Shown: positions 2,955 through 60,700 of the stretch, in pieces
How the letters are laid out: every line of letters begins with the position of its first letter
How positions within the stretch are numbered: the stretch's first letter is position 1
NCBI RefSeq assembly: GCF_026151205.1
Contig: NC_087075.1
Location: 6,342,858 to 6,406,857 of the forward strand
DNA: 64,000 bases
Direction of reading: 5' to 3'
DNA from: Bolinopsis microptera
Lineage: Eukaryota > Ctenophora > Tentaculata > Lobata > Bolinopsidae
The notes under the pieces: generated by a model
Seen by the model: only the letters and a program-made list of their open reading frames with translations
The model's database searches: none
Told to the model about the DNA's origin: nothing
Made by a program: the position numbers and the translations under genes

Positions 2955-3807
2955 CTTATTGGACTTATTATCATATCGTACCTTAATTAGCTCTTAAATT
3001 ATGATTTCAATCGGTGTGTCTGACTTTTCTCGATAATTTGTTGACTAGTTTAATTATTGATCACAAAAAGTATAAGGTTTATTTATTGGGTAAAGTTAAT
3101 ATTACATGTTTTGTTCAATGTTAATAATGAAAAATATCATTAAGACAAAATTCAAACTGAAACCGTGTTTTTATTCGCCTAAATTTCTGGAATTGATAAA
3201 ATCTAAAACATTTGTGAGCACATGTCCATCTATAAACAAGCGGTTTTATATTATAATTATTTCGTTGCGCCTGTTTTTGACGAGTCAAGTTATTCAAAGT
3301 ACTTGATTTGAATTGGTAGTGGTCAAAGTAAACTGGTTCATAGTAAATCAGTTGAATTTGAAGGTTTTGGTTGATCATCATCCACTGGAATCAGGCCATC
3401 GCCCTCTTTTGAGTGGAATAGTAACCATAGCAACAGTTACGTAACCACAGCAACAGCATTGCTGCTGTCTCTTAGAAGCTTTCTTAAGCGGATGCGCTTG
3501 TTTTGTTTCCTGTAGAGATCAGAATATAAAAATAGAGACAGTTCAGTAATAAAAAACTTCCCATTCAATAATTGCAATCAGGGTTCAGATAAAACCAAAA
3601 TCGAGTACATCGACACAGCTTTGTTATTTGGCTATTTTAAGTTACGCAAATTACCTGATTTTCATGAAAATGGAACTCAAGCCTTGGCAAGCAACTTCTT
3701 AACCTCGTGCGCAGGTTTCTCGGTTACCAACTGAAAAGTTGTGACGTCATATTATTACGTTATAGTATAACTCACCACACGGTTCTATGACGTCATAGTG
3801 ATTAACC
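2955..3807. other. AT-rich non-coding
   Basis: No exon with convincing splice sites or recognisable protein similarity is present, and short ORFs on both strands look random. Confidence 0.4.
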
Positions 3808-4965
3808 TAAAGTAAAGGTATATTTGCCATGCAGGGTTGTGTGAAATATATCCTTGTGTTTAACCTAAAATAAAGGTAAAGCCATACAGGGTGGCATGTA
3901 AAATATATCCTTGTGTTTAAGGGGGGGGGGGGGGGGTTCACCCTGATTTTTTTGTGAAACTTGGTTTCGAGATAGCAGTTGACCAACAAACTAGGACCGG
4001 TGACCAAACTTTTGAGGGGGTCCCGGACCCCAACCGCCAAACGGTGCCCGCGGGGCAGCCACGCCCATATTTGGTCCAAATTAGGCTCAATTTAGCCAAA
4101 TACCCAGAGCATGCCCAAAACCGAGATTTTATGTGCTCTTGTAGCACATAAAAAATTCGGCGGCCAAATTCTGAATTTTGCAGTGCAAATTTTGAAATTT
4201 GGCCGCCAAATTTTTTTAAAGGCCTAACTCAAAATTCCAATACAAAACTTAAGGTCGAAATGCGATTCTACGTTGATTCTGAAAATTTCATGTAAAAATA
4301 TTGAAACCCTATTGAGTTCTATAATTGTTTTGAGCGAAATCAGTTTTGCAAATATCGCGAACTGAGATATGGGCGGTTTTGTTCATTTTTTGCGATTATT
4401 TAAACACAGAATACACAGTTAGTTAGATACTGAGCTGATAATCATAGAGAATGTGTAGTATAGACTTAACTTCCATATAAAGTTAGTTTTATTCAAAAAT
4501 ATTGATATTTGACCAATTTATGGGCCAAAATCGATCAAATTTGGTGCGTATGCCCAAATATGGTCATATGGTTTTTGGCTCATAACTCAGTCATTTTTTG
4601 TCCAATCTTGATGAAAATTCATATACGAGTTCAAGAGACCACTAGCTACAAGAAGAGCACATAAAATCTCGGTTTTGGGCATGCTCTGGCTAAATTGAGC
4701 CTAATTTGGACCAAATATGGACGTGGCTGCCCCGCGGGCACCGTTTGGCAGTTGGGGTCCGGGACCCCCTCAAAAGTTTGGTCACCGGTCCTAGTTTGTT
4801 GGTCAACTGCTATCTCGAAACCAAGTTTAACAACAAAATCAGGGTGAACCCCCCCCCCCCTTAACCTAAGGTAAAGGTAATCATGCCATGCAGGGTGGTG
4901 TGAAATATATCCTTGTGTTCAACCTAAAGTAAAGGTAATCATGCCATGCAGGGTGGGAGTACCTT
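3808..4965. repeat. ~57-bp tandem unit split by a MITE
   Basis: Units of the type AACCTAAAGTAAAGG...GCCATGCAGGGTGG...AATATATCCTTGTGTT occur twice before 3,920 and twice after 4,861. The MITE at 3,921-4,860 splits the array exactly at a TTAA within a unit. Confidence 0.7.
3921..4860. mobile_element. piggyBac-like MITE with long inverted repeats
   Basis: This 940-bp element is bounded by TTAA on both sides (3,917-3,920 and 4,861-4,864). Inverted arms of roughly 230 bp begin with a G-run followed by GTTCACCCTGATTTT and GAAACTTGGTTTCGAG, and the mirror arm ends AGGGTGAAC plus a C-run. There is no transposase. TTAA target duplication is the hallmark of the piggyBac superfamily, so it is probably a non-autonomous member. 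Confidence 0.75.
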
Positions 4966-5589
4966 TACAAAACGAGTGCTGACAGTGTAATTCTGTGCTT
5001 TCTTTTCGTCATTAACTGCTATCAGATCGTTTAGAACTTTCTAAAATAACGCAGTGTAACTATGGTAACTAGTAATGTAACTATAGTAACTAGTTAACGA
5101 CTCAACTATTAACGGGTGATACTCGTAAAATATTTGTTCCAAATATTACTATTAGGTTGTCATGCAGAGTCCTATCAACTATTAGTTAGGGATTTATGCA
5201 ACATGTCTGTGAACAAATTTGCGACAAGCAGTTTTCTGCAGGAATGTGTTGTCTATAGTGTCAGGAACCACAAAAATATATTCAATCTGGATCTGATGGG
5301 GAAAAAAGTTAAAGCAAATTTTGTCCAGTCATCATAAAGATCGCACTTAAAAAATGTGTAACTGTCGTTAAAAACTATAGGAAATTAGGCGGGGTCGTCT
5401 TATGGCAACTCAACAAACAGGCGGATCCAGATGACAAAGAATTTGTGGCAACTTCTGTCGAGGGAAAGATAATATTAGTCTTTGAAAATATACCATAATC
5501 TGACTAACAAAACTAAAAGTAACTTATCAGATATCATACAAAATATGGGAAAGGTATGTTTCTGATAAACAAAGCAGGTATAACGGAAT
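4966..5589. other. no confident gene
   Basis: Short ORFs on both strands lack recognisable domains. On the minus strand an acceptor (TTTCCCTCGACAG, near 5,456) followed by 14 codons and a stop would be in phase with iGluR exon 15. It is a possible, unproven, short receptor C-terminus. Confidence 0.3.
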
Positions 5590-5745
5590 GAAAACGACCT
5601 GTCACAGTGATATAAAAACTAAATGTTACCTAAATGTTACCTAAATGTTACTTATATGTTACCTTAAGTTCCTGTCACAGTGATATAAAAACTAAATGTT
5701 ACCTAAATGTTACCTAAATGTTACCTAAATGTTACCTTAAGTTCC
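5590..5745. repeat. tandem array over the iGluR exon-15 donor
   Basis: The 11-mer ACCTAAATGTT is repeated. A larger unit (CTGTCACAGTGATATAAAAA through TTACCTTAAGTTCC) is present twice. Each larger unit carries the minus-strand junction GAACTTAAG/GTAACAT, which is the real 5' splice site of iGluR exon 15 at 5,735/5,736. Thus the exon end and donor are duplicated in the following intron. Confidence 0.75.
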
Positions 5746-5893
5746 GGGTTCCTATTCGGGCTCCTCTTTCCCTTCAATAGTTCCAGAATAAAGACTATAA
5801 CAGACAGTGCAACAACAGGCAGGATGATAGCCATAGTTCCCACTACGGAGAAGACGTTGATCTCACTTGAGCCTGGTTTAGCCGCCAGAGTTC
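5736..5893 (-). CDS. iGluR exon 15: M4 segment
   Basis: The acceptor CTCCAACAG gives phase 1 and the donor AAG/GTAACA gives phase 0. The peptide ends S2 and contains one hydrophobic helix (INVFSVVGTMAIILPVVALS and on) followed by a basic stretch (LLKGKRSPNRN). This matches the fourth membrane span and start of the cytoplasmic tail of animal iGluRs. Confidence 0.88.
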
Positions 5894-6190
5894 CTGTTGG
5901 AGTTAGACTGGATAATACCTTATTTGGGCATCACGTGTGTTAGACGGGATCTGATTTTTGGAGTGCTATAATTTTGCTTCACATTATCAATCAATACAGA
6001 CTAATTATGAAATTATTTATAGTTTAAAAATAAACAATAATATAGTTTATAAATAAACAATAATCTTATTATATATCTTTTAAGTATAAAGGTCCAGTCC
6101 CAGAGAGATTAAGATCTCACTTTATTAGCGTACGGACCAGTGGCGTAACGAAGGGCCCCGCTGACCCCGGTGGGGGGAGGGGGCGCCGTG

Positions 6191-6237
<47 letters not shown>

Positions 6238-9200
6238 AAATCGTCGTTTGAATGTGTGACAATTTCGAAAACTTAACTAAAGTACTAGCAAAACTGCGCG
6301 TTTTGCTCTAGATACACACTTTTTTAGAGATTTTACCGGCGTATCCTCTAAAATCACCTAATTTGTTCAATTTTAGAGAGGGGCACCAAAAAGGGAGGGG
6401 GCGCCAACAGGGGGCGCTTTTTCGGCGGGGGGCGCCAACAGGCAACGTTACGCCACTGGTACGGACGTGTAATAATAATAAACACTTACCAGTGCAGGTA
6501 CGTACTACGGACGTGTAATAATAGTAAACACTCACCAGTGCAGGTACGGACTACAGACGTGTAATAATAATAAACACTCACCAGTGCAGGTACGGACTAC
6601 GGACGTGTAATAATAGTAAACACTCACCAGTGCAGGTACGGACTACGGACGTGTAATAATAACTACACTCACCAGTGCAGGTACGGACTACGGACGTGTA
6701 ATAATAATAAACACTCACCAGTGCAGGGTCCAGCCGCCCAGTTCCTCCACGCTGGCAGTATCTCGTTCTTCTCCTTCATCTGGATCAGACCCTCATTTAT
6801 CAGCTCTATCAGGGGACTGTCATCAGGCAGAGCGAATGAGAGCTCGTACTCTAACAGCCTGTAGTTGCATGTGTGTTTATGTGCGTTTTAGTAGTGTTTA
6901 TGTGTGTTTTAATTGTGTTTATGTGCGTTTTAGTAGTGTTTATGTGCGTTTTAGTAGTGTTTATGTGCGTTTTAGTTGTGTTTATGTGCGTACTCTAACA
7001 GCCTGTAGTTGCATGTGTGTTTATGTGTGTTTTAATTGTGTTTATGTGCGTTTTAGTTGTGTTTATGTGCGTTTTAGTAGTGTTTATGTGCGTTTTAGTT
7101 GTGTTTATGTGCGTTTTAGTAGTGTTTATGCTCTCAATTCCTCAACAGTTATCAATTGTTTTTATACTGACTTGAGAGTTTTGTTTAGTGCTAGTAACAA
7201 GAGTTAATTACTATATTTCTGAGTTTAAAACTAATATAATGAGTATCTTAGTTATACATTCGTCCGGGCGTTTGAGTGAGAATCTTAGATATAACCTGTG
7301 AGTGGATATTTTGAGTCCGCAAGGTTCAAAGTTGCTGGTGTACTCTAGAGGAGCTGAACCGTAGAGGAATGCGTAGTCACCTTGTCTGGCACTGTTTACA
7401 CCTTCCTGGTATGAGGGGACATTCTTCATCCTCCTGGAGAGTGGTTTGTTACTTTCAACACTACTATTTAACAAATAAATTCTTCATTCTCCTACAAATA
7501 TTTTATCTGAATTGTGGTGTTTTACTGCCAACTTATAACATTTCTCGTGGAGATGGTATTAATCAGCAATTTTATCCTTATTCAAACACAAAGATTTGTT
7601 TTCTTCATCTTTGCATAAAATATCCCCACATATTCTGTGTAAAAGAAACAATACCTTATTTGGGCATCACGTGTGTTACCTGACGAGGCTAGCCATTTCC
7701 TGATCGGAGGTATTGCTCAGCAGCATGTCCGTTATCGAACCCTCCACAGTTCCAGTAGTCATTCCTGTACATTGTACATTGTTATTCCTGTACATTGTAC
7801 ATTGTTAAATATACTAGAGGTAGTCTTATTCCTGTACATTGTACATTGTTAAATATACTAGAGGTAGTCTTATTCCTGTACATTGTACATTGTTAAATAT
7901 ACTAGAGGTAGTCTTATTCCTGTACATTGTACATTGTTAAATATACTAGAGGTAGTCTTATTCCTGTACATTGTACATTGTTAAATATACTAGAGGTAGT
8001 CTTATTCCTGTACATTGTACATTGTTAAATATACTAGAGGTAGTCTTATTCCTGTACATTGTACATTGTTAAATATACTAGAGGTAGTCTTATTCCTGTA
8101 CATTGTACATTGTTAAATATACTAGAGGTAGTCTTATTCCTGTACATTGTACATTGTTAAATATACTAGAGGTAGTCTTATTCCTGTACATTGTACATTG
8201 TTAAATATACTAGAGGTAGTCTTATTCCTGTACATTGTACATTGTTAAATATACTAGAGGTAGTCTTATTCCTGTACATTGTACATTGTTAAATATACTA
8301 GAGGTAGTCTTATTCCTGTACATTGTACATTGTTAAATATACTAGAGGTAGTCTTATTCCTGTACATTGTACATTGTTAAATATACTAGAGGTAGTCTTA
8401 TTCCTGTACATTGTACATTGTTAAATATACTAGAGGTAGTCTTATTCCTGTACATTGTACATTGTTAAATATACTAGAGGTAGTCTTATTATAGTCTTAG
8501 AATAGTCAATAAATGGTCGTGAAATAGTGTGGAACCTGATTTTATCTGATTGTAATAGATCTCCCATATAAGTCTCAATATTCTTGTGGATCCTACCCTT
8601 ACCTGATTGTAATAGATCTCCCACAGTCTCGATATTCTCATGGATCCTACCCTTACCTGATTGTAATAGATCTCTCACAACCTCAATATTCTTGTGGATA
8701 CTCCCCTTACATGATTGTAATAGATCTCCCACAGTCTGAATATTCTTGTGGATCCTACCCTTACCTGATTGTAATAGATCTCTCACAACCTCAATATTCT
8801 TGTGGATACTACCCTTACATGATTGTAATAGATCTCCCACAGTCTCAATATTCTTATGGATCCTACCCTTACCTGATTGTAATAGATCTCTCACAACCTC
8901 AATATTCTTGTGGATCCTGCTTTTACCTGCTTGTAATAGATCTCCCACAGTCTCAATATTCTTGTGGATCCTGCTCTTATCTGATTGTAATAGATCTCAC
9001 ACAGTCTCAATATTCTTATGGATCCTACCCTTACCTGATTGTAATAGACCTCCCACAGTCTCAATATTCTTGTGGATACTACCCTTACATGATTGTAATA
9101 GATATCCCACAGTCTGAATATTCTTGTGGATCCTACCCTTACCTGATTGTAATAGATCTCTCACAACCTCAATATTCTTGTGGATACTACCCTTACATGA

Positions 9201-12200
9201 TTGTAATAGATCTCCCACAGTCTGAATATTCTTGTGGATCCTACCCTCACCTGATTGTAATAGATCTCCCACAGTCTCAATATTCTTATTGATCCTGCTC
9301 TTATCTGATTGTGATAGATCTCCCACAGTCTCAATATTCTTATGGATCCTACTCTTACCTGATTGTAATAGATCTCCCACAGTCTCGATATTCTTATGAA
9401 TCCTACCCTCACCTGATTGTAATAGATCTCCCACAGTCTCAATATTCTTATTGATCCTGCTCTTATCTGATTGTGATAGATCTCCCACAGTCTCAATATT
9501 CTTATGGATCCTACTCTTACCTGATTGTAATAGATCTCCCACAGTCTCAATATTCTTATGGATCCTACCCTTACCTGATTGTAATAGATCTCCCACAGTC
9601 TCAATATTCTTATGGATCCTACTCTTATCTGATTGTAATAGATCTCACACAGTCTCAATATTCTTATGGATCCTACCCTTACCTGATTGTAATAGATCTC
9701 CCACAGTCTCAATATTCTTATGGATCCTACTCTTACCTGATTGTAATAGATCTCCCACAGTCTCAATATTCTTATGGATCCTACTCTTACCTGATTGTAA
9801 TAGATCTCCCACAGTCTCGATATTCTTATGAATCCTACCCTTACCTGATTGTAATAGATCTCCCACAGTCTCAATATTCTTATGGATCCTACTCTTACCT
9901 TATTGTAATAGATCTCCCACAGTCTGAATATTCTTATGAATCCTACCCTTACCTGATTATAATAGATCTCCCACAGTCTCAATATTCTTGTGGATCCTAC
10001 TCTTACCTGATTGTAATAGATCTCCCACAGTCTCAATATTCTTGTGGATCCTGGTTACAGTGAGGTAGGCTGCCAGGTTTGCTGTATAGAGGGATATGAG
10101 GACCAGACATATAATCCACCAGGCGGTAACCAGGACTCTTGTGGACCAGCACCGGGGAGTGGCATCAGGAGGTCCTATCTGGTGGGGTAACGAGTAAAAT
10201 TACCTTATTGCGTGAACGGATATTAAAATGAACGCTCGAGGGGCCACTACTCAGGACAAATAACGTCCAATATATATATATATATAATAAGGTAAATTCT
10301 AGAAATGCAAGCCGTGAAATATTTGACTAAATACTAATAGGGGTTTTTAACCCTAAATAAACCGGTATGCTGCCTGTAACAATTACTACTCGGACCTCAC
10401 CTGCAGAAATGAGCAGATTATCAACCAGATACTGTTCAGCAGATTGAGACTCTTCATTTCATCATGTATACCCTGCTGCTCCCCAAACGGGCAGCCCTTC
10501 ACACTGAAGTCTCCGTTTAAACTAGCAGTGCACTGCTCACACTTACAACAGAGCAGCTTCTGTTTGGTGCCGCCGTAGTAACCGTAGGGGGAGAAGTGGT
10601 CGAATACCCATATCAGGACGCAGAAAACACAACCTGCTAACACAATAGCTATCCACAGCTCCCTGCTGAAGGGGCGCAGGAAGAAGAAACTGTCTGTTTT
10701 GAACATTGTGAGAGGGTCGAATCCGTCTGCTCCCACTGCTCCTCCTTCCTAAATAAATAAATGAATAAAATCAAAGTTTATACTGCAATTTATCGGTAAA
10801 TATTTGAGTCAGTTTTATTAGAAACTGTAAAGGATCGAATCAGACCATGAGTCTGTTTATAGTAGTACACCCTACTAAGGATATTATATCCTGGATTTAA
10901 AATATTATGAAGGAGCAGTACCTGCATTGCCATCACTATTCCTCCAGTCAGTAGGGGCACAGCGAAATCTACAACTCTCTCCCGGGCGCTGTTGATACCA
11001 AAAGCTACTATTCCCATGTCTATTTCCCGTCTTTTTAACATACCAATGAGACCATCCCACTCTTCTTCGTTCTCAGAGACCGGAGCTCCAAAGTTTCCTG
11101 ACGGGTCCTCAACAAAAGTGAAAGTAAAATCATACTGTTTAGCGAGCTTCTCTACAATATCAATGTTGAGCCCCTCGTAGCACCTCAGCTGGTCCTTGTA
11201 CAGACACTTATCATGACCTGCCTCCTCATAAGTAAACTTTACAAAGGGGGGATCCTTTACCACACCCAGGCGGAGGTGCGTGCTAATCGTGTTCTTCAGC
11301 TTGGTGTCACCCCCGTAGAACTGGGGTTTGGATTGCAACCCTATTCCTTTAGATTCCTCGAATTTACCAATGTCGACTGGCACACCTGTGTAGAAAGTTT
11401 GGATTTAAAACGTTATCATCAAATAAGATTAAGGCACCTATTCCTTTTTATTTGGTAATATACGTAATATATGACATTTGAATTTTGTCTGTATGCACAT
11501 GTTGACTAATTTATCATAGCAATATTGGCTAAGTAAAGGGCGAATAGAAGAGTATCTCAAAGAAGAGTATCTCAAATATGCAATAGAAAATATTAAAGAA
11601 TAAAACTATAAAATATCCAAATGATGAATATTAAAATGAAGGATGGCTTGTCTAGAAAGATGAAATAACTTGTGAACAAATGCAAACTAATAATTAAATA
11701 ATTAATAATTACTAACTAATAATTAACTAATAAATTACCTGTTCTAACATTGACTATCGTGTAAGTGTTCTTAGCAGGACCGCCCCATTTTGAAAAGGAA
11801 ATGTTTCCACCACTCACTCCCCGAAATGAGATCTCTTTCATGGCTCTAGTTATGAGGTACCCCTCCTTAAACCAATTCACAGCCGGAATAGTGTACCCGT
11901 GGTCATCCGCTCTTTTTACCCGTTTTAAACTCCCGTTTTTATTTTCACTTTCACTTTCACTTTCAGTATCAGTTTTATTGATGTCAAGGCTTTTTAGCTC
12001 GCATCTCACGGTTGGATCATCAAAAGTCAACTTTCCTTGTTTGTTAAGGTAGTCCAACGCTTTTATGAGCGCCATGGTGCTATCGTATACCTATAAACGA
12101 TATATTTCAGATCCAATGTAATTAATTTCACACGAAATGATAGCAAAAATAAAAAGGTAAGCATAGCTCAGGTCAATTATGAGCAAATCATATCTTCCAT

Positions 12201-15200
12201 TTTGCCATCTACTTTAATGCTTCCCAGCTCCTTGGTATTGATTCTACCACAATTATCATGCTTTCGCCAATACAAACAACCATTCGTAACCTTCCGCTTT
12301 ACATTTTTAAGGGTGGATGGAAAAATTAAAGCTGGATCACCTGAGCACTGAGAGAGTCTATTCTGTTAATTCTGGTACTCCTTGCCTCCTCCATCGCTTC
12401 TACAAGTCGGTCGTGTTGAGGAGAGTCTTCATTGGAGACCCTCCCTAGTAGCAGTAATCCGTCGTAGTAAACTGGCAAGTTGTTTCTTTTGTCATCCTGG
12501 AGGTAATATTGTCAGAATGATTCATTGAAATTGTACTGTAATATTAATACTATGATTGCATAGTTGAATCAATAATGGCTGTTTTAGAGTTAAAATTACG
12601 TGGAATGCTTATGATTACTAATAAATCTAAATGACTTAATATCCAGCTCATGAATCCCGTGCCCTTTAGAAAAAACTAAAACACCCACCAAGTCATTAAC
12701 AGCACTATTCCCGCTAATCCAGAGGAACTCTGGTCCAACCAGTCCAACTTTGTTAGCCTGATCTAGAACTGTGTTGATGAAGGAGCTCTTCACGAATAAT
12801 ACAAATATTCTGATCCGCTTTTCTTTGATAGCCTCCAGTTCTTTACTGTGAGATGTTTTGGTTTTAACTTAATCGGATTGAAGAATGTTCCTTTTTAAAT
12901 TGTGATCTGACTCACATTCTGTGTTAAGTAAAGTGGGTAAAGTAAAGTGGGTAAAGTAAAGTGGGTAAAGTAAAGTGGGTAAAGTAAAGTGGGTAAAGTA
13001 AAGTGGGTAAAGTAAAGTGAGTAAAGTAAAGTGGGTAAAGTAAAGTGGGTAAAGTAAAGTGGGTAAAGTAAAGTGGGTAAAGTAAAGTGGGTAAAGTAAA
13101 GTGGGTAAAGTATAGTGAGTAAAGTAAAGTGGGTAAAGTAAAGTGGGTAAAGTAAAGTGGGTAAAGTATAGTGGGTAAAGTAAAGTGGGTAAAGTAAAGT
13201 TGGGTAAAGTATAGTGGGTAAAGTATAGTGGGTAAAGTATAGTGGGTAAAGTATAGTGGGTAAAGTAAAGTGGGTAAAGTAAAGTGGGTAAAGTATAGTG
13301 GGTAAAGTAAAGTGGGTAAAGTAAAGTTGGTAAAGTAAAGTGGGTAAAGTATAGTGGGTAAAATAAAGTGGGTAAAGTAAAGTGGGTAAAGTAAAGTGGG
13401 TAAAGTAAAGTGGGTAAAGTAAAGTGGGTAAACTAAAGTGGGTAAAGTAAAGTTGGGTAAAGTAAAGTGGGTAAAGTATAGTGGGTAAAGTATAGTGGGT
13501 AAAGTATAGTGGGTAAAGTAAAGTGGGTAAAGTAAAGTGGGTAAAGTATAGTGGGTAAAGTAAAGTGGGTAAAGTAAAGTTGGTAAAGTAAAGTGGGTAA
13601 AGTATAGTGGGTAAAGTAAAGTGGGTAAAGTAAAGTGGGTAAAGAATAGGGGGTAAAGTAAAGTGGGTAAAGTAAAGTGGGTAAAGTTAAGTGTAGATAT
13701 TTCAGAGCCAACTTTAACAATAGTGCTATGACTAAAACGACTCACTTTATGTTGATATTTCGTGCAAAAGAGGAGGCGGGCAAAACAATATGATCCTTGA
13801 CGACCATTCGCTGACGATGCGCATCAACCTCAAACTTAGCACTCAGACTAGCACCTGAAGAGTTTAGTAACCATGGTAACACGACAGTGTACTGTTTTAG
13901 ATAACATTACCGTTCAAAACAAATACAGGTAGTTTATAGATCTAAGAACATCTTTTTATTAACAACACGTTGATCACCATTGAGAAATGAGCCACAAAAT
14001 AAGACAATGTGTTTCAGATGGGTTAACCAAACAGATGGCTTCAAAAGTAAGCATACATACAGGGTGGCCCATAAGTGACTACCCACACGCAACCTCTTAA
14101 TAACTCACGTAATTCGTCTCCAAATTGCACCAAAATTTCAGAGATTATAGATATGGGTCAAACTTAGATTTCCTGAAAGTTTCGTAAGCCACGCCCAATT
14201 ACAGTGGGCGTGGCGTGACACTCCCTTTTTTTCACTATTGTCTTCATAAAATGAGAACGCTTTAAGCTAAGAACTCAAAATTTTTTGCACACATTTGGCT
14301 TGATAATTGAAAACTTTTCCCAAAGTTTCAAGTTCATTGGTTAAAATATGGCTAAGTTATGACCATTTCAAAACTCATCGGATACGTGATCCGAGCACTC
14401 AGTCAGTGATCTCGTCACTTGGTTAATGGCCTGTTTGGCTCACATGCACATGCACCGCTTGATTGGTTGCAGCCTGCTTATGGGCCGGCCTATACAGCTG
14501 ACTGCACCTAAAACGCTATCACACGAATTTATGGTGGTGTCACCATTTCAGGGCTTGTTAGCCCTGCTGGTCACGGTGAACGGACCGAATCACTACATGA
14601 CTGAATCCCTAACGGACTGAATCACTACCAATCACTATTGGTAGGGATTGAGGTATATTTTAGGACTAAATCACTACCGGACTGAATCACTACCGCTAAT
14701 ATCTAAACCCAACCACTTTGATATGATCCCTACTGAACTTTGCAATAAAGGCATAATTATTTCATAGTCCACCAGCACCGACTGAGGGTAGAAGGGTCCG
14801 TAGGAGTCCAGTTCGTTGAGGATGTTCTCGTACATGATGGTGCGCTTCCCGGGTAGGAGTCCAAAGGCTGCAGGGATTCTCCATCCAGTAGGGTGTAAGG
14901 CGTGGACTGTGAAGAGTTGAGTAAACAGGTCTGGAGAGGTCTTAAAGGTTCCATCCACGACGAGGTGATCTGACTGATAGATGATGTTGATGTTGTCTGC
15001 AGTACCAAGGAGGATAGATCTTCTGGTGTTGGTGTCGTAGGAGGAGTCCCAGAGCAACATAGTGTCACCACCGGGAGAGGTCAGGTAGTTAGGAGGAATC
15101 ACCAGGTCTTCTAAGGAGATGGGGTTGACAGGATGGGAGTAGGCTGCCATTCTGGCTCGTCTGACTAGTCGTGCCAAGGACTTGGGATCACAGTTGAGCC

Positions 15201-18200
15201 GGGACGAGGCTTCGAAGGATAGTCCAGCGACAGAGTCTGCAACAATCTGCTTAGTTGAGTTCTCAGTAGTAGCTGCGAGGGTCTTCATTTTAGACTTGGA
15301 GCGGTGGGCTGCAATTTCTGCTGGTTGAGATTCGTGGTCATGAGGGGTAGCAGAACAGAAGGTGTCCTGGACAAGGATCAGGCGGGACTTGCACTTGTTG
15401 CACTTCCAGTAGGTCTTGTCTTCCCTCTTTCTGTTAAGGTGGTAGAGGTGACCATCGTAGAGGACGTTGCGGCTGCCTTTCTTTCTGCCAGGAATAAACT
15501 CGATGGATGAGGAAGACATAGTGGTATAAGATAAACACAGGCGTTGCGGGTTTATATATTATTCCCGCTAGCTGATTGAGATACCGAGCATGTGAAGGTT
15601 CACATCACTGTATTGTCGTATAGCAGGTCATTATGGATGACTTGATCCAAACCAGTTCTCGTTAGGGCTCCTCGTTGCGTACGTAAGTCTGTGTATCACA
15701 TGTCTGACAGGCCCCATAGCAAGCACTCCATGAGAGCACCGGCTCAGATCACGTCATGATATTAGACTAGTGAACTAAGATCAACTGGTAGGGATTGAGG
15801 TATATTTTAGGACTGAATCACTACCGGACTGAATCACTACCAGTAGCGATATTTGCGTGGTAGTGATTCCGTCCGGTAGGGATTCAGTCCTACAATCGCT
15901 GGTCACAGGTTCCTTACAATCAATAAAAAGGAATGAACCATCCATTGAATCATCGAAAATGGTTCACTATCCTCCCTTTACTGCAGAACAACGATTGTTC
16001 GTCTACCTGAAGAAAGAAAATGGGGAGTTCTACCCTCAGATTAAACGACAATTTCAGATGAAATTGTCGTTTCCGGGTCGGCAGAAGACGAACTGCGAGG
16101 ACTGTAGAAAACATCACGATGGTTGTTGGTGACGTGATGGACACACCTAAGATTGGCACCCGGAAACGAGCTCCTGCCTTAGACATCAGCAGAACCCTTC
16201 AGCGAATCCTAAAGCAAGACCTTTCTAACCGGGCCTACCGAATCACAAAGAAACACAAACTTTTGGACCGTGATTTCCAATCGAGGATAGATTTCGCCAA
16301 CACATTCCTGTCCAAGCAGAATGTGGATCCCTACTTTGAGGACGAAATCTGGTACAGCGACAAGGCCATATAAACGGATATGTCAACTCCCAGAATGCAA
16401 TTCACTGGGGCTCTACTAGACCGGATGAAGTGGTGGAGAGAACGGCTTTTCCTGAAAAGGTCACGATCTGGTTTTTATCGTAAAAATTTGTGTTTCCCTT
16501 TCTAGCAAAGTCATCATCGGTATCCAATCAAAGCCTAATGAACCTCATTAATACACGCTAACGCCTTACTCTTGATCAGATTGGGTGACGAGATCACTAA
16601 TTGAGTGCAAATATCACTGACTGAGTGCTCGGATCACATATCCGATGGATTTTAAAATGGTCATAACTCAGCCATATTTAAACCAATGAACTTGAAACTT
16701 TTGGAAAAGTTTTCAATTATCAAGCCAAATGTGTGCAAAAAATTTTGAGTTCTTAGCTTAAAGCGTTCTCATTTTATGAAGACAATAGTGAAAAAAAGGG
16801 AGTGTCACGCCACGCCCACTGTAATTGGGCGTGGCTTACGAAACTTTCAGGAAATCTAAGTTTGACCCATATCTATAATCTCTGAAATTTTGGTGCAATT
16901 TGGAGACGAATTACGTGAGTTATTAAGAGGTTGCGTGTGGGTAGTCACTTATGGGCCACCCTGTACCATAGATATCGTCAGTGTTGATAACAGCAACTTG
17001 ACTGTCCTTTAGCTCCAGCATCATTAGGATGTCAAATATAGCGGACACTTGTTCCGTATCCAGGGGGTTGAGATGGAACATGTTTTGTAACCAAAACGCG
17101 TCTTCCAGAAACGTTCCTGACGAGAAACTTTTTTAGAAAATTCACTCCCCGATTTTCGTAAGGCATCCAAAAAGACTAAGACAAGTGTGCGTTCACATAG
17201 TGTTGGACAATAATGCAATTGCAATCTATCACTGGGTCCTCGGAGTGGATATTGCCACGTGATGCCCATATGAGGAGTGGATATCCTGCTCGCTTTTCTT
17301 GAGAACTCTTAATAATATATATACCATATAGCCAGCTGCCAGGGCCAAGATATTCACACTTTCACACTATACCAGGGACAAAAGAAAATCGCGATCATTT
17401 TGGCCAAAAATCGCGGTATCGCGACAAGCCAAACAGGCAAACAGGCGACATATAAAATTTGTCGCAAAAAATGGGAAAAATCGCGATCCTGCACATGCCG
17501 CGATTTCCTTTTGTCCCTGCACTATACCGTTCTGGAGGTTCTCTGATATTCCTAACTGATACCCATCGTTCACAACTTATTTAGATATGAGTGATGGACA
17601 TAGTTACAATGCGGAGGTGGCGATAACACCAAAGTTAATATAACGACACTTATCTCAGATAACATGTGACTCAACAAAAGTTTATTAAACAGTTGATACT
17701 GGAAAATTAAAGTAGTATTTCTGTGCAACTACTACAGAAGTTGTATAACACTCGACCTCCGCATGATCCAGAGGATGTCATGGTCACCATTTTACCTTCA
17801 CACAGACATCGAACGCTGCAAGAAGATGACGATCAGACCTCGTTATTGTTTAAAATCAAAGTTATAGATGTAAATAAACTGACCACTGGCAGTGGGAGTG
17901 ATGTTAGGTATTCCCAGACTGGAGGTTATGAGAGAAACAGCTTTAGTCTGTTCGTAGTGGTACGGGCCGACCACAGCCACCATCGGGTGATCCTTCAGCA
18001 TCTTGCAAACTGTACAAGTAATTGTGATTAGTAATTAATAATTTCTAATTATTGATAAAATTATTACTGGTTATCGACCAAAAAAGTTAAGAACAAAGCT
18101 CGGTTTGATTTCTCAAAAGTATAGTTTCAAACATCTACGATAAACAAATAAATACACTAAACAAATAAATAAAATAATTCACTTATTTATCAACCAACTA

Positions 18201-18831
18201 AATCTATAAGAAAATTCAACCTTGCAGTTGAGCGATGAAGGGTGAAGCATAATAATTCTCAATGAGGGTCTCCACCGCTCTCAGCTGAACATTAGGGAGG
18301 ATGTCTGGGTCGGAGTTAGCATCTTGCAGTGCCAGGTTGAAGGGGGTCAGGTAGCTCGTCATATTGCGGGAGTGGTAGAGCACACCTTAGTTATTAAGTT
18401 ATTTTGTTAGAGCACGCCTTAGTTATTCAGTTATTTTGTTATTTATTCGAACAAATTGAAACAATCAAAATGGTGGGCAATCGATCCGTTTCATGATATG
18501 TATAAAACAATATACATAATACCAATCATAATACCAATCATCAGGGCTTATGATGCTCCTGCTTAACTGCAGTCGAGCACTCTCTTTGGGATTTATTTAT
18601 ATTATGTATGGCCTGGTTTGATCGTATTAAACTACTACTACTACTAGTAGAAATAGTAACCTAAAATCAATGACATTGTAGTTCATTAAATACGTTGTAC
18701 AAAAATAATTGAAATCAAGTAAAATTACCTAACTTACCGATGTGGAGTTCCTTCTTGACATTTGTTGATAAATCTTCACTTTCACTTTCACCCTTAACGA
18801 CACAAAACAGGAACAAGCATATTGAGAACAT
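5736..18831 (-). CDS. ionotropic glutamate receptor, 15 exons (3' open)
   Basis: A ligand-gated cation channel subunit of the plasma membrane. Exons, all with GT-AG borders and matching phases: 18738-18831, 18221-18385, 17884-18009, 16967-17116, 13746-13854, 12689-12845, 12341-12496, 11739-12090, 10922-11385, 10401-10748, 10007-10178, 7680-7764, 7296-7433, 6719-6858 and 5736-5893, totalling 2,814 nt (938 codons). The protein has a signal peptide (MFSICLFLFCVV), a periplasmic-binding-like amino-terminal domain, S1, M1, pore loop, M3 with YTANLAAYLTV, S2 and M4. The Cys-rich stretch before S1 (CLYKDQLRCYEG) recalls NMDA-type or other early-branching subunits, but the subclass is unresolved. The exon-6 donor choice (12,689) is the least certain. 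Introns hold a mariner/MULE composite, MITEs and large splice-junction arrays. The terminal exon is not identified. Confidence 0.92.
6138..6458. mobile_element. hAT-type MITE, copy 1
   Basis: This 321-bp element has terminal inverted repeats CAGTGGCGTAACG / CGTTACGCCACTG and an 8-bp target duplication GTACGGAC (6,130-6,137 and 6,459-6,466). It contains a run of about 46 G. Eight-bp duplication and CAG-type ends fit the hAT superfamily. A related copy is at 41,858-42,130. It sits within iGluR intron 14. Confidence 0.85.
6187..6233 (+). repeat. poly-G tract (~46 nt)
   Basis: An essentially uninterrupted G homopolymer inside the MITE. Such tracts can form G-quadruplexes and are error-prone in sequencing, so its length is approximate. 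Confidence 0.9.
6466..6718. repeat. 46-bp array of iGluR exon-14 donor
   Basis: Five extra copies of a 46-bp unit (CACTCACCAGTGCAGGTACG then GACTACGGACGTGTAATAAT) adjoin the exon-14 boundary at 6,719. On the minus strand every unit contains CCTGCACTG/GTGAGTG or a close variant, identical to the real exon end and 5' splice site. The intron therefore starts with a ladder of donor copies spaced 46 bp apart (not a multiple of 3). Confidence 0.85.
6719..7764 (-). CDS. iGluR exons 12-14: S2 ligand-binding lobe
   Basis: Exons 7680-7764, 7296-7433 and 6719-6858 have phases 1/2, 2/2 and 2/1. They encode the S2 half of the ligand-binding domain. GTVEGSI replaces the usual YGTxxxGST region. MKNVPSYQEGVNSARQGDYA followed by FLYGSAPLEY corresponds to the segment that normally carries the acidic Glu/Asp contacting the ligand amino group, where Gly is found instead. 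EPCGLKI supplies the conserved Cys before the final strand. LSFALPDDSPL and MKEKNEILPAWRNWA match the conserved C-terminal helix with its Trp. Residue assignments are from memory-based alignment. Confidence 0.87.
6846..7130. repeat. array beside the iGluR exon-14 acceptor
   Basis: A 21-bp unit (TGTTTATGTGCGTTTTAGTAG) is repeated about eleven times. A longer block GTACTCTAACAGCCTGTAGT followed by TGCATGTGTG occurs twice, at 6,846 and about 6,990. That block is the exon-14 start plus its 3' splice site read on the minus strand (CAACTACAG/GCTGTTAG), so the acceptor junction is duplicated inside intron 13. Confidence 0.8.
7765..8487. repeat. 44-bp array of iGluR exon-12 acceptor (~16 copies)
   Basis: About 16 near-identical 44-bp units (ATTCCTGTACATTGTACATT then GTTAAATATACTAGAGGTAG) directly abut exon 12. 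On the minus strand each ends AATGTACAATGTACAG/GAAT, which is the real 3' splice site of exon 12 (ACAG/GAATGACTAC). The following unit sequence GACTACC echoes the exon start GACTACT. It forms the 3' portion of intron 11. Confidence 0.9.
8535..10053. repeat. 54-bp array of iGluR exon-11 end and donor (~28 copies)
   Basis: About 28 diverged copies of a 54-bp unit. Read on the minus strand, the unit encodes RIHKNIETVGDLLQSGKG and contains CAATCAG/GTAAGG, a consensus 5' splice site. The copy at the high-coordinate end is the genuine end of exon 11 (M3-S2 linker, donor at 10,006/10,007). Because 54 is a multiple of 3, the array stays open over long stretches in several frames. The coding frame meets a TAA in the third unit, so the array is most simply intronic. 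Some units carry CATGTAAG or CAGATAAG at the junction. Confidence 0.93.
10007..10178 (-). CDS. iGluR exon 11: M3 gate segment
   Basis: Phase 0 in, phase 1 out. It encodes the rest of the pore loop, then WWIICLVLISLYTANLAAYL, the M3 helix with the family signature (usually SYTANLAAFLTV), then the linker RIHKNIETVGDLLQS leading into S2. This signature is near-diagnostic for iGluRs. The last 47 nt of this exon are the template of the neighbouring 54-bp array. Confidence 0.95.
10270..10287. repeat. (TA)n microsatellite
   Basis: Short TA dinucleotide run in iGluR intron 10. Confidence 0.8.
10401..10748 (-). CDS. iGluR exon 10: M1 and pore helix
   Basis: This 116-codon exon (acceptor TTTATTTAG, donor CAG/GTGAGG, phase 0 both sides) encodes the end of S1, the FLRPFSRELW pre-M1 segment, M1 (IAIVLAGCVFCVLIWVFDHF) and the SPYGYY motif typical after M1. 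A Cys-rich loop follows (CCKCEQC...C), then the pore helix NSIWLIICSFLQ. The Q/R/N selectivity position is near LQ/IG, where the exon border falls. The Cys-rich M1-M2 loop is longer than in AMPA receptors. Confidence 0.93.
10922..11385 (-). CDS. iGluR exon 9: S1 ligand-binding lobe
   Basis: It encodes the S1 half of the ligand-binding domain. Visible elements: KDPPFVKFTYEE, a CLYKDQLRCYEGLNIDIVEK segment (the GxxIDLL-type motif), EWDGLIGMLKRREIDMGIVA, and AFGINSARERVVDFAVPLL. The Arg of the SARERVVDF segment aligns with the alpha-carboxylate-binding Arg. The usual PLT tripeptide just before it is replaced by AFG. Phase 1 in, phase 0 out. Confidence 0.93.
11739..18831 (-). CDS. iGluR exons 1-8: signal peptide and ATD
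   Basis: Exon 1 (18738-18831) carries a hydrophobic signal peptide. Exons 2-8 encode a LIVBP-like amino-terminal domain: LTPFNLALQDANSDPDILPN, VVGPYHYEQTKAVSLITSSL, GIPNITPTASG, FWLQNMFHLNPLDTEQV, DSQVAVINTDDIYG, EKRIRIFVLFVKSSF, VYDSTMALIKALDYLN and ISFRGVSGGNISFSKWG. These are standard ATD landmarks in the right order. Exon 8 includes a Glu-Ser repeat (ESESESEN) encoded by a GAAAGT microsatellite. Splice phases agree across all junctions. Exon 4 ends exactly where a mariner element has inserted. Confidence 0.9.
12596..12688 (-). other. in-frame extension of iGluR exon 6
   Basis: If the GTGGGT donor at 12,688 is not used, the frame continues 29 codons (GVLVFSKGHGIHELDIKSFR...) to a stop. 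The peptide resembles the GVLGF-type ATD segment that exon 7 also supplies. It could be a remnant duplicate, an alternative exon end or coincidence. Confidence 0.3.
12926..13690. repeat. 14-bp minisatellite (~54 copies)
   Basis: A nearly pure array of GTAAAGTAAAGTGG with A/T and G/T variants fills most of iGluR intron 5. It is open on the minus strand (a Leu/Pro/Tyr/Phe/Thr repeat) only because of its composition. Unlike the arrays at introns 11, 13, 14 and 15, I see no splice junction in its unit. Confidence 0.95.
14674..15519 (-). CDS. FLYWCH zinc finger plus MULE-type transposase, truncated
   Basis: This 281-aa ORF has an N-terminal FLYWCH-type zinc finger: G-x-LY-x-LN at about residues 23-30, then YWKCNKCKSR with a downstream HDH. 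A MULE-like transposase core follows, with HLVVDGTFKTSP (first catalytic Asp) near residue 185 and SVLVDYE (second Asp) near 248. The third acidic residue (Glu) region is absent because the ORF ends at 281, so the enzyme is probably inactive. FLYWCH-MULE proteins are domesticated or mobile in many animals. The start is the ATG at 15,519, with a TATA box 30-40 bp upstream. Confidence 0.8.
   Translation of the reverse strand: MSSSSIEFIPGRKKGSRNVLYDGHLYHLNRKREDKTYWKCNKCKSRLILVQDTFCSATPHDHESQPAEIAAHRSKSKMKTLAATTENSTKQIVADSVAGLSFEASSRLNCDPKSLARLVRRARMAAYSHPVNPISLEDLVIPPNYLTSPGGDTMLLWDSSYDTNTRRSILLGTADNINIIYQSDHLVVDGTFKTSPDLFTQLFTVHALHPTGWRIPAAFGLLPGKRTIMYENILNELDSYGPFYPQSVLVDYEIIMPLLQSSVGIISKWLGLDISGSDSVR
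15548..15556 (-). promoter_or_regulatory. TATA box of the FLYWCH/MULE gene
   Basis: On the minus strand ATATATAAACC lies about 30 bp upstream of the ORF's ATG, a reasonable TATA element for this nested transposon gene. Confidence 0.5.
15957..16490 (+). pseudogene. decayed mariner/IS630-type transposase
   Basis: Fragments in three frames share the order of a mariner-type transposase. First is an HTH-like start (FTAEQRLFVYLKKENGEFYP). After a frameshift comes the second HTH/linker (ISRTLQRILKQDLSNRAYRI) and the first catalytic region EIWYSDKAI (usually SDEAHFH; the block contains D). After another frameshift comes HINGYVNSQNAIHWG. The rest of the catalytic domain is missing. The reading frame is broken at least twice, so this copy cannot make an active enzyme. 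Confidence 0.8.
17373..17519. mobile_element. short hAT-type MITE, copy 1
   Basis: A 147-bp element with ends CAGGGACAAAAG / CTTTTGTCCCTG and 8-bp target duplication CACTATAC on both sides. It is rich in ATCGCG motifs. It lies in iGluR intron 3. A partial copy in inverse orientation is at about 54,460-54,600. Confidence 0.85.
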
Positions 18832-26532: not shown

Positions 26533-26595
26533 GTATTAACGAAAAGGATCAAGGTTAAATCAGCTATAAGAAGATAAGACAATGTATAAGGGGCA

Positions 26596-29287: not shown

Positions 29288-32200
29288 CTATTTACCTTGA
29301 TTGTTTTATCATCAGCAGCGCTAACAATCCTCCAGGTATCTGCTTGTAAACATCTCACAACACCAGTGTGTCCTTCAGCACTGGGCAGGAAAGGGAGACG
29401 TTACAGATGAAAACAAATATGGAACTCTTAAATCAGCTGAGAAAACTTGCGAATAAATTTGTCTGTCCAACAAGCTGTATTTCATTTCAACATACCTCGC
29501 CCAGTCGAGTGTTTGAATACACCTCTCACTTTTGATGTCCCAAACTTTTATTTGGGTATCTAAACTCCCAGATACTATCCGGGAATGGTCGAAGTGTATG
29601 CACGTGACAGCGTTGTTGTGACCAGATAGTGTCGCCAAACATTCTCCTGTATCAAAACTCCACACCTATCAAGGTGTTTATTACATAATAGCGGTATGAT
29701 TACATTAATTACTTATTAGTTATTCATCAATTTATTTTTAAAACTTTTTTGTAACTCGGTAAAAACGTTTTTATGTATGTTGAGACGAACCAAAAATCGT
29801 TCATATCCCATACAAACATAGAACATAATATTATCTTTAGACAGTAATTTAAGTAGAAGTGCCCCTAACATTCAAACAAAATCGGTGATTACAAACCTTA
29901 ATAGTGTTATCGCAGGAACCACTGACTATCTTGCTGCAATCAAACTGTACACTCAACACAGCTGCCAAATGTCCACGTAGAGTGGCTAGACATTCCCCAG
30001 TGCTCAGTCGCCATTTCTTTAGGGTGTGGTCGTAGGAACCACTAACTACAACCCCTAGACCTACCTGATTACAAGAATACAAACATGTTAGGAATGATAT
30101 ATGGAAATTTAACGGTGGACTAGTGACCACTCAGAGAATTATTCGAAGCCGCCATTTTATTTTAGGAAAACAACAACATGGTTGACTGCACGTTTTATGT
30201 TATGTTTTACTTTGCGGACGAAAACGCCGCGCAGTCATCCGATAAGATTGATTTAGTTTTTTCTCATAGTTTGCGGCGCGCGTTACAATTTACATTTTAT
30301 CCACTGTGACCGAATATTGTGCCCATCGTTGTCCAATTACTTTAGATCTGGGAGCAATGTCAAATTGCTAATTAGTGATTACCAATTAGTGATTGCTAAC
30401 AAAAATACAACCTGTAAACATCTGACTGTATGACTGTGGCCCACCATAGTTACAGTACATCTACTTCTTGACCATCCAACTCCTTCAGCAAGATCCCAAA
30501 CTTTAATCGTACAATCGCTTGAACCTAAAATAAAAATAAATATATATATATATGTGTGATACTAAAAATGTTGTGTACATAGTTAATGATAATATTTGTA
30601 AGTTAAGTTATATAGGATGTACTTCAGACTCTTTAAAGGTTAGATTTAGGAACCATAAATCCCACATTAAAACCCAAAGAAGGACTTGTGAACTTTCCTG
30701 CCATTTTATAGATAATGAGATTTTGCACAATCTTGACCGTACCACCACTAAGTTGTTTACCAGTACTTTAAGTAAGGACATTAATGTTTCGATTATAGAG
30801 CAAGTTGACGTTGGGAATTTTGAGCAATGTGCCCAGGATAGACTAAGTATATGTAAACAAAGGGAGAACTTTTGGCAAAACCAGCTTAAAACTTTAAAGC
30901 ACTTTGGAGGGATGAATGTTAGAGAAGAAAGATGATTTTTTTCTTGCATATTTTATTTTCTCACCTCTACCACTCATTTGGGATTTCCACCCACCATAAC
31001 TTGAATTGCTGAGTTACATAAATTTCTAAATTTTAAATTTCTTTTATTTGATTGATTGATGGATTGATATTTTGAATAAATTTACTAACATGTCTTTATA
31101 TCAGGATGACTGTAAAGGTACATTTTACCGACATTTGAAGTCAAGGCGTTGTTTTACTGATAGTTGTGGCTGACTAATAATATATATATATATATATAAA
31201 ATATCATTATTCAACCTTTCGTTGGTCAACCTTACTCGACGCTTCATAACATATATTCTAGAATATCTAAAAGATAAAATACAGTATCCTGTATCAAACA
31301 TTCGGAAAGTTTACACCACAACAAAACTAAATTCGATCAATATTAAAATTAAATTAAACTGTGAGAACTAACCGCTGACAAGTTGGTTATTATTGAGATG
31401 CAAGCACCTAACAGTGAAAACTTACCGCTGACAAGTTGGTTATTATTGAGATGCAAGCACCTAACAGTGAGAACTAACCGCTGACAAGTTGGTTATTATT
31501 GAGATGCAAGCACCTAACAGTGAGAACTTACCGCTGACAAGTTGGTTATTATTGAGATGCAAGCACCTAACAGTGAGAACTAACCGCTGACAAGTTGGTT
31601 ATTATTGAGATGCAAGCACCTAACAGTGAGAACTAACCGCTGACAAGTTGGTTATTATTGAGATGCAAGCACCTAACAGTGAGAACTAACCGCTGACAAG
31701 TTGGTTATTATTGAGATGCAAGCACCTAACAGTACCACTATGTCCTCTTAGTGTTAATCCGCCCCAGGGGGTGTTGGATCTGGTGCTCCATACTTTTATA
31801 GTCTTATCAGAACTACCACTAACAATTCTGAAGTCGTCGAACTGTACACATGTGATGCCCTGTGAAATGTCAATTTCGTATTTTGGGGATTATACAAAAT
31901 TGGATGTTGGTAAATTAATCATAATCATGTGATGCTTAGATGAAAACAGCAATGTTCAATAATCGCCATTGATTAGCTCGCTCTAAACTTACAATAAACC
32001 GTGTTAACATTCACCTGTGTATGTCCCTCAAACGTCCTCACGTAACAGTTACCAGTCAACCAGTTGTGTTGTAATTTGTACCTCTCTATGAACACTCGTC
32101 TCCAAGGTATATACCCGTACCGAGACTTGAATATCTCCAATTGTTTTGACGCTACCTGAATAATGTGTTTTATAAGCTGTGCTGTAAACATACAGATAGG

Positions 32201-34770: not shown

Positions 34771-35069
34771 ACATTGTTGTTTTACTCTAGAAACAGAAGA
34801 AATCCCTTAATAGAAACAGCCATCGATATATATAGCTGCGCCCCCGAACCCCTGCCGTGGCTCCTTCGGTGGCGCTTTGCGCCACGTCACCCTCCCAGAA
34901 TTTCACAGCTGGATCCATGCCTGCTGAACTGTAAGGGTGGTATGGGCTTCAAATATGTTGCAACATTCCTAACACAAAATTGTTGCTTATTGTCCAACAT
35001 GATCCACTTCTTAAAATAACGAGCTGCAATCTTCATAAAGGCAGATTTATTTTATTGTGATATCAAGTA

Positions 35070-43993: not shown

Positions 43994-43999
43994 TGTTTG

Positions 44000-57745: not shown

Positions 57746-60700
57746 ATGAAGCCTGATGACACTCCCGGTAAATCTTTCGTTATTCCCAAGAAAGCGCGTT
57801 CTGTCGCCCACCAGTTCACCTCCAAATTGGAAAAAGGAACCAGAGATTGGGACAACATTGCTGGGATTCTGAAACACAGTTGCCGTGTAACTCGGAATAT
57901 TGATAGGTAAGTTAAGAATCGAGATCTGGCAGATGTTTTTCATTACCTATAATCTTTTATTTGAAAATAACGTCAATAAACGTGCACAATTTTGAAAAAT
58001 AGTTGGATCAAATCTTAAATAATACCACTATGATATGTAGGTATATTTTACACTGCAACTGTAACTTGAAATTTTAAACAATTGTATAAATTGATTCCCG
58101 TAATTATGTGTATCATTTGAAATTTCAAAGTTTTAAAATATCTCTATTACTTCCAGGTTTATTTTAGAAAACATGTGGTTGATCAACAACGAGAAGCTCA
58201 CTAGCCAATATAACCAGAAAAAACAAGACATGAAAGACCAAGGTTTAAAAAGTTAGAGGTTATTCTCCAAGAAGCTCATAAAATTGTCATCCTGCCTGTA
58301 CTGAATTCTTAGATGTATGAATAGCGTGTAATGAGACCGAAATAAGTAAAAGTCGGTATGTAAATTATTTTATAAACCTCTGTTTGCTTGTAGGACGAAC
58401 ACAGCAGGAACTGAAGGAGCTATTCGCATTTAACCTGTGCTCAGATTTCCGACTAGCAACTAATTTTTGTAAATATGGAATGAAGGCTGGCAACGCCTTC
58501 AGTGGAAATCATCTGGGGGACTGTAATATGGGCGTTTATTTCTACAGGTCAGTTTCTTAATTTATAATGTTTAGACCTGTTTTGTTCCCGAAGCAGTTTC
58601 TTAATTGATTAGGAATAAACTGTTCAGAAATAAAATGTTTGATGCTGAGAAAACAACCAATCACTTCCGTTGAAAGCTCAATAAATCCTACTTTTTACAC
58701 AATTTGGTAGACAATTACTAATTTAATCACATTTTTGAACTTTATACACATACCACCCGCTCAGATTTATAGATACGATGAAGAAGTACATTGGATGGAT
58801 GAACAAAGAATTTACTGGGTTTCTGGTGATATACAAATTAATGAGGGGCCGTGTAAAAAATGTTACAGTACACAAGGAAACAGACTCAATATTGGAACCG
58901 GATCCAAACTACGATTGCCACACTTCCAAGTATACGCTGTCACAGGTAATTAGTGAACTGGAGGAGTCACCAGAGCGGACCAACTACAAACTTTAACTTG
59001 TTTTCGCCTGGTGTAGCCTTTAAAGTTCATCAATATTTGATCCATTTACCCTCAAATCTTAGTGATTGATAACCGTTAACTAGCACAATCGCATCAAAAA
59101 CGTCATTTTTTCTTCCTCTCAACCTCGGTCGGATGACATAAACTAATTACTCTATTACATTTATTGAGAATTATGTCATGTAACGCGATAGAAATATTTT
59201 AAACGGGTCATATCCTGTCCAAACCCAGGATGCACTACATGAAGTTGTAACTTTGTTTGAAAGGCATTAATAAACTAAATATTTAAAATATTAAAAACAC
59301 CTCAGTTTCACACGATGAGATACGCAGATGCCTACATCTCTGGTCGGTACTATGTCTACGAGTTTGATGATAACCTAGAGATAGTAGGAATTCCTCGGCA
59401 GGTGGTCCCGTACGCTATTGTTGAGTTCCGCACTAAACCAGATGAGAATCAGAAGGAGAGGAACCATCAGCCGGTCATGAGATCTATTTCAGAGCTTCCC
59501 TCTTCCAAGTTAGGGAAATATGTGTTTTAAAAAAATTACACGTGCACCCTTTAAACCTGGTTAACTAATTATCTTTAATTGTGATAATATCTAGATTTAA
59601 CGTTTTTTATTACTATTCATTATAATACAATAATACCTTGGCTTTTGAGGGCTTTTGTTACACGTGCACCCTTTATATCTGGTCAACTTATTATGATTAT
59701 CTGAAATATCTAGATTTGAAATCGACAATAATGAGAACAAGGAACGATTAACATTCAAGCAACTATAGTTCAAGCTTGATTACCAAAACGATTTTTTATG
59801 TCTTGGAAGTACTTAGAAATCCTTGAACATCTGGCAATGGTGTAATTTCTCCTAAACAGTTTTGGTGTCCACCTCCTACTATCGACAATACTTATAAACT
59901 GTAAGTTTGTTGATTGATCTAAAGGTGACCCCCTGCAGGACGCCTAAAGAAAATCTGGAAGTAATAATAGACGGAGTACCTTTAGATGCTCCTTTACCTG
60001 CCCCAGAACCAGAGATAGCAGCTAAAGCCGGTCTCCTCCCCACTCCCACTTCTGTTACACCAGCCCTCCTGCCTACTCCTGATGATCCTGAGAAAAAGGT
60101 TTGCAACTGGTACATTTAATTATTTATCTTTCTCCTCCCCACCCCCACTTCTGTTACACCAGCCCTCCTGCCTACTCCTGATGATCCTGAGAAAAAGGTT
60201 TGCAACTGGTACATTTAATTATTTATCTTTCTCCTCCCCACCCCCACTTTTGTTACACCAGCCCTCCTGCCTACTCCTGATGATCCTGAGAAAAAGGTTT
60301 GCAACTGGTACATTTAATTATTTATCTTTCTCCTCCCCACCCCCACTTTTGTTACACCAGCCCTCCTGCCTACTCCTGATGATCCTGAGAAAAAGGTTTG
60401 CAACTGGTACATTTAATTATTTATCTTTCTCCTCCCCACCCCCACTTCTGTTACACCAGCCCTCCTGCTTACTCCTGATGATCCTGAGAAAAAGGTTTGC
60501 TGAGTACAAGTGGTTATATATAATATTTGCTGAGTGGTACATTTAATTATTTATCTTTCGTTCATCACTCACTTTTTGATTGTAGTATATGTATGGTGAA
60601 GCAAGTGAAGCATAGGAAACAAAAGATAATATGCATAATATGCCTAATAAATATTCAAACTACTAGAGGACTACTGCACTTCTATGTGGTGTTATATTTA

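Follow-up and report, generated by a model that had tools for sequence, protein, structure and literature searches.

Tandem repeats whose unit takes in a native splice site have been described in human genes. In CBS (PMC2630376, PMC1395315), a 31-bp variable number tandem repeat (VNTR), c.1444_1467+7(16_21), lies at the boundary of exon 13 and intron 13, its unit by name comprising 24 nt of exon and 7 nt of intron, and a second variant, 844ins68, is a duplication of an intron-exon junction in which splicing strongly prefers the distal copy, resulting in normal mRNA. ABCA7 (PMC5954066) has a 25-bp VNTR in intron 18, its first two bases being the exon 18 donor, with about 12 to about 427 copies; approximately 2% of transcripts keep one unit through the use of the second donor, leading to a premature stop, and longer VNTRs increase skipping of the next exon. 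Exon letters have also been turned into intron by a single junction duplication across an exon-intron boundary in a potato RdRp gene and by tandem duplications within exons in Drosophila. Here, we describe intron 11 of an ionotropic glutamate receptor gene in a 64,000-nt stretch of contig NC_087075.1 (the window) of the ctenophore Bolinopsis microptera, which carries two arrays of this kind, one at either end.

As in CBS and ABCA7, the tandem units of intron 11 include the native donor or acceptor. The CBS 31-bp VNTR, present in 16-21 copies, is like the 54-bp array at the 5′ end of intron 11 in that its unit joins an exon end to an intron start with the native donor, but the two CBS variants each occupy one intron end, in different introns, and are known as polymorphisms of one gene. 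The ABCA7 array opens, like that of intron 11, with the donor GT; retention of one of its units leads to a premature stop, as use of an inner site would in intron 11, and its length affects splicing, but it is found at one end only and its unit lacks exon letters. The potato and Drosophila duplications likewise convert exon letters into intron, although in those cases a new intron was made, whereas here two units that look unrelated were each copied many times within an intron that already existed. Taken together, these four systems show that the components of the mechanism have precedents, and the class itself is already known in its one-ended human form, contrary to the initial annotation of this DNA, which knew of no described class of intron with this architecture. 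What is new is the occupation of both ends and the frequency of such arrays. A search limited to the open-licence literature found no reports of a single intron with arrays at its two ends, none of junction arrays genome-wide, nor any description of a general, junction-based route of intron growth. The bias of the arrays towards junctions, rather than the two-ended layout, is the point of interest.

Layout and splicing of intron 11

Intron 11 occupies 10006-7765 on the minus strand (2242 bp), exactly the interval that had been proposed, with the donor CAG/GTAAG at 10007/10006 and the acceptor ACAG/GAAT at 7765/7764. From the donor end onwards, it is made up of a 54-bp unit repeated 28 times, a 47-bp stretch of unique DNA, 16 copies of a 44-bp unit and, beside exon 12, a duplication of 23 bp (Table 1). 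Tandem Repeats Finder (TRF) scores the first array as 54 bp × 27.9 (8542-10052, 90% matches, 0% indels) and the second as 44 bp × 16.1 (100% matches), consistent with the initial count of about 28 units bearing the exon 11 end with its CAG/GTAAG donor and about 16 units bearing ACAG/GAAT. The accompanying statement that unique sequence is absent from the intron needs a small correction, because the 47 bp between the arrays belong to neither.

The 54-bp array starts within exon 11, whose last 46 nt of coding sequence form unit 1 together with the 8 nt of intron that follow. The intron part reads GTAAGRGT in most units, GT being retained in 23/28 and GTAAG or GTGAG in 22/28; units 1-27 are free of indels and unit 28 has 57 nt. 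Units 11-12 reappear as units 14-15, indicating an internal duplication of several units, and position 9 is T in all of units 3-15 and C in the exon, in unit 2 and in 10 of units 16-28, a pattern that makes the middle of the array look younger than its far end. The first suggestion that the arrays were seeded at opposite ends of the intron, on its splice junctions, is supported, but the internal duplication and the younger-looking middle lend no support to growth away from those ends. The share of exon 12 in the 44-bp unit is only 1-4 nt, the exact figure varying with the side to which the breakpoint AAT is allotted. At the breakpoint of the 54-bp array, AGGATCCACA in exon 11 and AGGTTCCACA past the last unit are equal in 9/10 bases, and at that of the 44-bp array AATAAGACTAC in the intron can be matched to the exon 12 sequence AATGACTAC if a gap of 2 bases is allowed (by eye). 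Matches of this sort are the expected trace of slippage between short repeats.

The 54-bp unit is specific to this locus, as all 13 genome matches of a 171-bp query fall inside the array, in a search that skips very common words. A query made of the 44-bp end and exon 12 gave 15 matches, 8 at this locus and another 7, weaker (71-88% identity), on C7, C8, C12 and C13. Those receptor paralogs with a match across the intron 11 site lack the intron, which is compatible with gain or loss; by eye, the paralog L061 has an intron 1-2 codons from the site, in another phase.

With 23 GT donors and 17 acceptors, intron 11 offers 391 pairs, of which one, the outermost donor with the outermost acceptor, keeps the frame. 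The protein of a relative, P0051 (source EukProt; identifier in the style of Pleurobrachia), spans the exon 11-12 junction without an insert (DLKDSGLPYGTV against DLLQSG/MTTGTV). This, together with the frame logic, suggests that the outermost sites are those used in splicing. Over units 1-27, the donor core shows 1.5 changes per column against 1.39 in the rest of the unit, and the inner donors are thus without constraint, varying as freely as their surroundings. Because of this free variation, and of the stop codons in units 2, 3, 8 and 20, the inner copies give no sign of coding or of donor upkeep. At another intron, the predicted protein P0052 of a relative (ENA source, 88% identical) does not stop at the donor that follows FLQ but continues through three copies of a NIFFESS-like repeat (21 bp), and that gene may carry a donor-adjacent array there.

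The host gene lies on the minus strand at approximately 18.8-5.7 kb of the window. In its model, E5-E14 form one stop-free joined frame, as do E1-E4; the E4-E5 join is out of frame, and therefore one exon is probably missing within the intron between them, which is 4 kb long and transposon-bearing. The exon numbers used here are those of the initial annotation, whose exon 11 corresponds to E10 of the model, given one missing exon. Whereas the present gene is split into 14 or more exons, several receptor paralogs of this genome are each encoded by one open frame, about 900-990 aa long. Within one of its introns, at 14677-15558 (minus), there is an 882-bp open frame with a FLYWCH match and a MULE transposase match below Pfam's cut-off. 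An identical 25-bp stretch occurs twice in the gene (minus), at 7650-7674, immediately within the exon 12 donor, and at 5914-5938, some 20 nt ahead of the exon 15 acceptor, and exact 30-bp and 26-bp pieces of this DNA stand side by side at C4:12718505-12718566. No Rfam matches at gathering score were found within 5000-19500, and a structured RNA was rejected on that ground.

Arrays on other splice junctions

Intron 11 is not the only part of the receptor gene with arrays on junctions. All six TRF arrays of the gene with a unit of at least 30 bp span splice junctions, two in intron 11 and four elsewhere, thus occupying 6/26 junctions tested for a nearby copy (26 of the 27 in the gene model, the exon 8 acceptor being the one outside the test). 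If each array is represented by one unit dropped randomly into the collapsed gene, positions entirely within exons being disallowed, the probability that all six fall on junctions is 2.2 × 10−5, or 5.1 × 10−4 without the transposon-rich 13.7-16.9 kb. There is, consequently, an excess of arrays at junctions within this gene. With 6 hits on 26 intron ends, the probability that some intron is hit at both ends is 0.52; excluding the exon 15 donor, the other end of whose intron is unmodelled, leaves 5 hits and lowers it to 0.37. At this rate of hits, the two-ended layout of intron 11 is unsurprising and is likely a by-product of the frequency with which junctions are hit.

Across the window, 8 of the 10 distinct arrays with a unit of at least 30 bp sit on junctions, one of them assigned by its open frame; the arrays at 3798-3920 and 48886-49322 have no assigned junction. 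One of the eight lies in a WD40-repeat gene, and its 53-bp unit has 4/4 genome matches in its own array. The 99-bp array in a DUF3715-like gene probably sits on a donor (splice score p 0.083 for the donor, 0.02 for an acceptor on the opposite strand). Strong-donor words show no excess in the window, with 2 observed against 2.42 expected. Shorter-unit arrays off recognised junctions are seen at 12926-13693 (14 bp × 55), 24716-25477 (11 bp × 70) and 26595-26897 (16 bp × 19). The open frames at 30540-30932, 35061-36179, 43400-43999 and 61170-61952 resemble, by eye, pieces of GIY-YIG endonucleases and reverse transcriptases.

Among the receptor paralogs, L062 has a 25 bp × 2.1 array on a donor, and L064 has a 46/104-bp array on an acceptor and a 32 bp × 22 array that ends at an acceptor AG; L061, L065, L066, L067 and L068 contain no arrays with a unit of at least 25 bp. 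In the B. microptera gene for protein P0001 (L063, C4:4.24 Mb), a 16 bp × 93 array at 4853-6342 starts about 6 nt past a donor and has TTTCAG in most of the units shown; it was dropped as a junction array, the donor not being spanned. The deposited P0001 protein has 15 LHNKS copies, a 7-residue repeat near its N-terminus, which is perhaps a minisatellite read as coding.

Ten random 10-kb regions supplied 18 arrays, which with the 10 of the window made 28 scored arrays out of 33, satellite-filled L045 being left out. The score, which needs no annotation, combines splice motif and codon usage, with a codon table trained on the glutamate receptors of this genome. Donor p was below 0.05 in 7 of the 28 (1.4 expected; binomial 4 × 10−4) and acceptor p in 4; in the random regions alone, the figures were 4/18 for donors (0.9 expected; binomial 0.011) and 1/18 for acceptors, this one acceptor scorer (L047 8100) being non-spanning when read. 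The score overlooks junction arrays with protein support, such as that of the WD40 gene (donor p 0.12) and that at exon 2 (acceptor p 0.105). On reading, with the hypothesis known to the classifier, 3/18 random-region arrays were convincing, namely 51 bp × 17 in L048 (45 nt of exon plus GTAAGT, 8/8 genome matches in its own array), 60 bp × 4.8 in L048 and 40 bp × 2.8 in L047. The exons of these three are defined by open frames and codon usage, because Pfam returned no match for the L048 frames tried. Three further candidates were set aside: L048 7247-7409 has an exon edge without a donor, L047 8100-8213, in a gene that we take to be MND1-like, stops about 8 nt short of the acceptor, and the frame of L039 508-909 resembles, by eye, window sequence near 22490.

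Table 1. Positions of the arrays and of the exons flanking intron 11, in window coordinates
Feature	Position	Strand	Basis or detail
Exon 11, ionotropic glutamate receptor gene	10007..10178	-	Colinear with relative's protein P0051; last 46 nt within unit 1 of 54-bp array
54-bp donor array, 28 units (last 57 nt)	8538..10052	-	46 nt exon + 8 nt intron per unit
Unique intron DNA, 47 bp, between arrays	8491..8537	-	Starts AGGTTCCACA; 9/10 bases equal to 54-bp unit start
44-bp acceptor array, 16 identical copies	7782..8490	-	ACAG/GAAT in each
23 bp × 2, second duplication at exon 12 acceptor	7761..7807	-	TRF
Exon 12	7680..7764	-	GMTTGTVEGS after outermost acceptor
32 bp × 2.1 over exon 2 acceptor (CTAAG/GTGTGCTCTA)	18376..18441	-	TRF and gene model
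144 bp × 2 over exon 14 acceptor (CTACAG/GCTGTTAGAGTACG), internal 21-bp array	6845..7130	-	
46 bp × 5.8 over exon 14 donor (CTGCACTG/GTGAGTG)	6460..6727	-	
73 bp × 2 over exon 15 donor (GGAACTTAAG/GTAACATTTAG), 11-bp subarray	5598..5745	-	
53 bp × 7.1 in WD40-repeat gene, exon end ...VRCLHLNNNQLVSG (~40 nt) + intron GTTAGTTCTCAC (~13 nt)	31357..31733	-	Pfam WD40
99 bp × 4.7 in DUF3715-like gene, exon end ...LLPTPDDPEKK + GTTTGC	60032..60500	+	Exon by open frame only

Origin of the arrays

These arrays are, with high probability, splice-junction minisatellites that were seeded by local tandem duplication and whose outermost sites are still spliced. Two independent events would have started the process, one duplicating the exon 11 end together with the donor and the other duplicating the intron end together with the acceptor. 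Each could have arisen where short direct repeats, such as AGGATCCACA in the exon and AGGTTCCACA in the intron, allowed replication slippage or microhomology repair, and slippage or unequal exchange would then have amplified the units. If the spliceosome stays with the outermost donor and acceptor, each added copy, including its exon-derived letters, would become intron and drift neutrally, and use of an inner site would lead to a premature stop. Counting one unit per array as original, intron 11 may have grown from about 100 bp to 2242 bp.

Several points weigh against this account. The 30-bp unit cut-off was picked after the data had been seen, and 10 shorter-unit TRF repeats in the receptor gene lie off junctions, with the 23-bp repeat at exon 12 lying on one. 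Direct repeats at the array edges stand out in the 54-bp and 44-bp cases and are weak, by eye, in the others. The choice of splice sites is read from sequence, and the copy numbers come from one assembly. In the many-intron P0001 gene, no arrays with a unit of at least 25 bp are found on modelled junctions, the one array of that size lying outside the modelled exons. Finally, neutral duplication at a uniform rate does not explain why junctions should be favoured over intron interiors.

That bias could have a cause of its own, added to the origin proposed here, if junctions were true mutational hotspots for tandem duplication in this genome, through a process connected with transcription or splicing, for example R-loops at exon edges, so that introns would grow from their ends. 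The placement of every long-unit array of the receptor gene, and of most in the window, on a junction argues for this notion, as does the surplus of donor scores, which persists in the random regions. Nevertheless, the sample is small, the hypothesis was born on the window that supplied 10 of the 28 arrays, 15/18 random-region arrays have no junction placement, and L039, one of the four random-region scorers, looks like a dispersed repeat; moreover, the score misses known cases and takes its codon table from the gene family under study. Hotspots of this kind are thus a possible but tentative addition. Its wider form, in which junctions throughout the genome of this ctenophore are hotspots of tandem duplication via a process linked to transcription or splicing, and introns lengthen from their ends as copied exon edges and splice sites become intron, is more doubtful still.

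Selection for additional splice sites, whereby redundant donors raise U1 recruitment or decoys control expression via nonsense-mediated decay, is an unlikely explanation. The retention of donor motifs in most 54-bp units and the identity of all 16 acceptor units would be in keeping with it, but the donor core varies no less than the remainder of its unit, and recent expansion accounts for the identity of the 44-bp copies. Those identical copies might also be taken as a sign that repeats were collapsed or expanded in the assembly; an artefact is very improbable, however, as the 54-bp units are diverged and internally ordered, and similar arrays are present at other, independent junctions. Two further candidates were rejected: an introner, dispersed element or satellite, given the single locus of the 54-bp unit in a search that skips very common words (the 44-bp end has 7 weak matches elsewhere), and intron gain from one duplicated AGGT segment, given that no kinship is visible by eye between the 54-bp and 44-bp units. 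Practically discounted is a coding role for the 54-bp array, as an 18-residue repeat of the ligand-binding domain: the unit length is divisible by 3 and no indel shifts the frame through units 1-27, but stops in four units break it, P0051 lacks the insert, and the variable sites are mostly non-synonymous (by eye).

In intron 11, the spliceosome faces 23 GT donors and 17 acceptors of which a single pair works, and its choice among them can be studied here as a natural experiment. The intron also suggests a testable route of intron growth, in which copies of a junction would be neutral for as long as the outermost sites serve. If the excess of arrays at junctions holds genome-wide, this would point to a mutational process at splice junctions, which may thus be places of intron growth.

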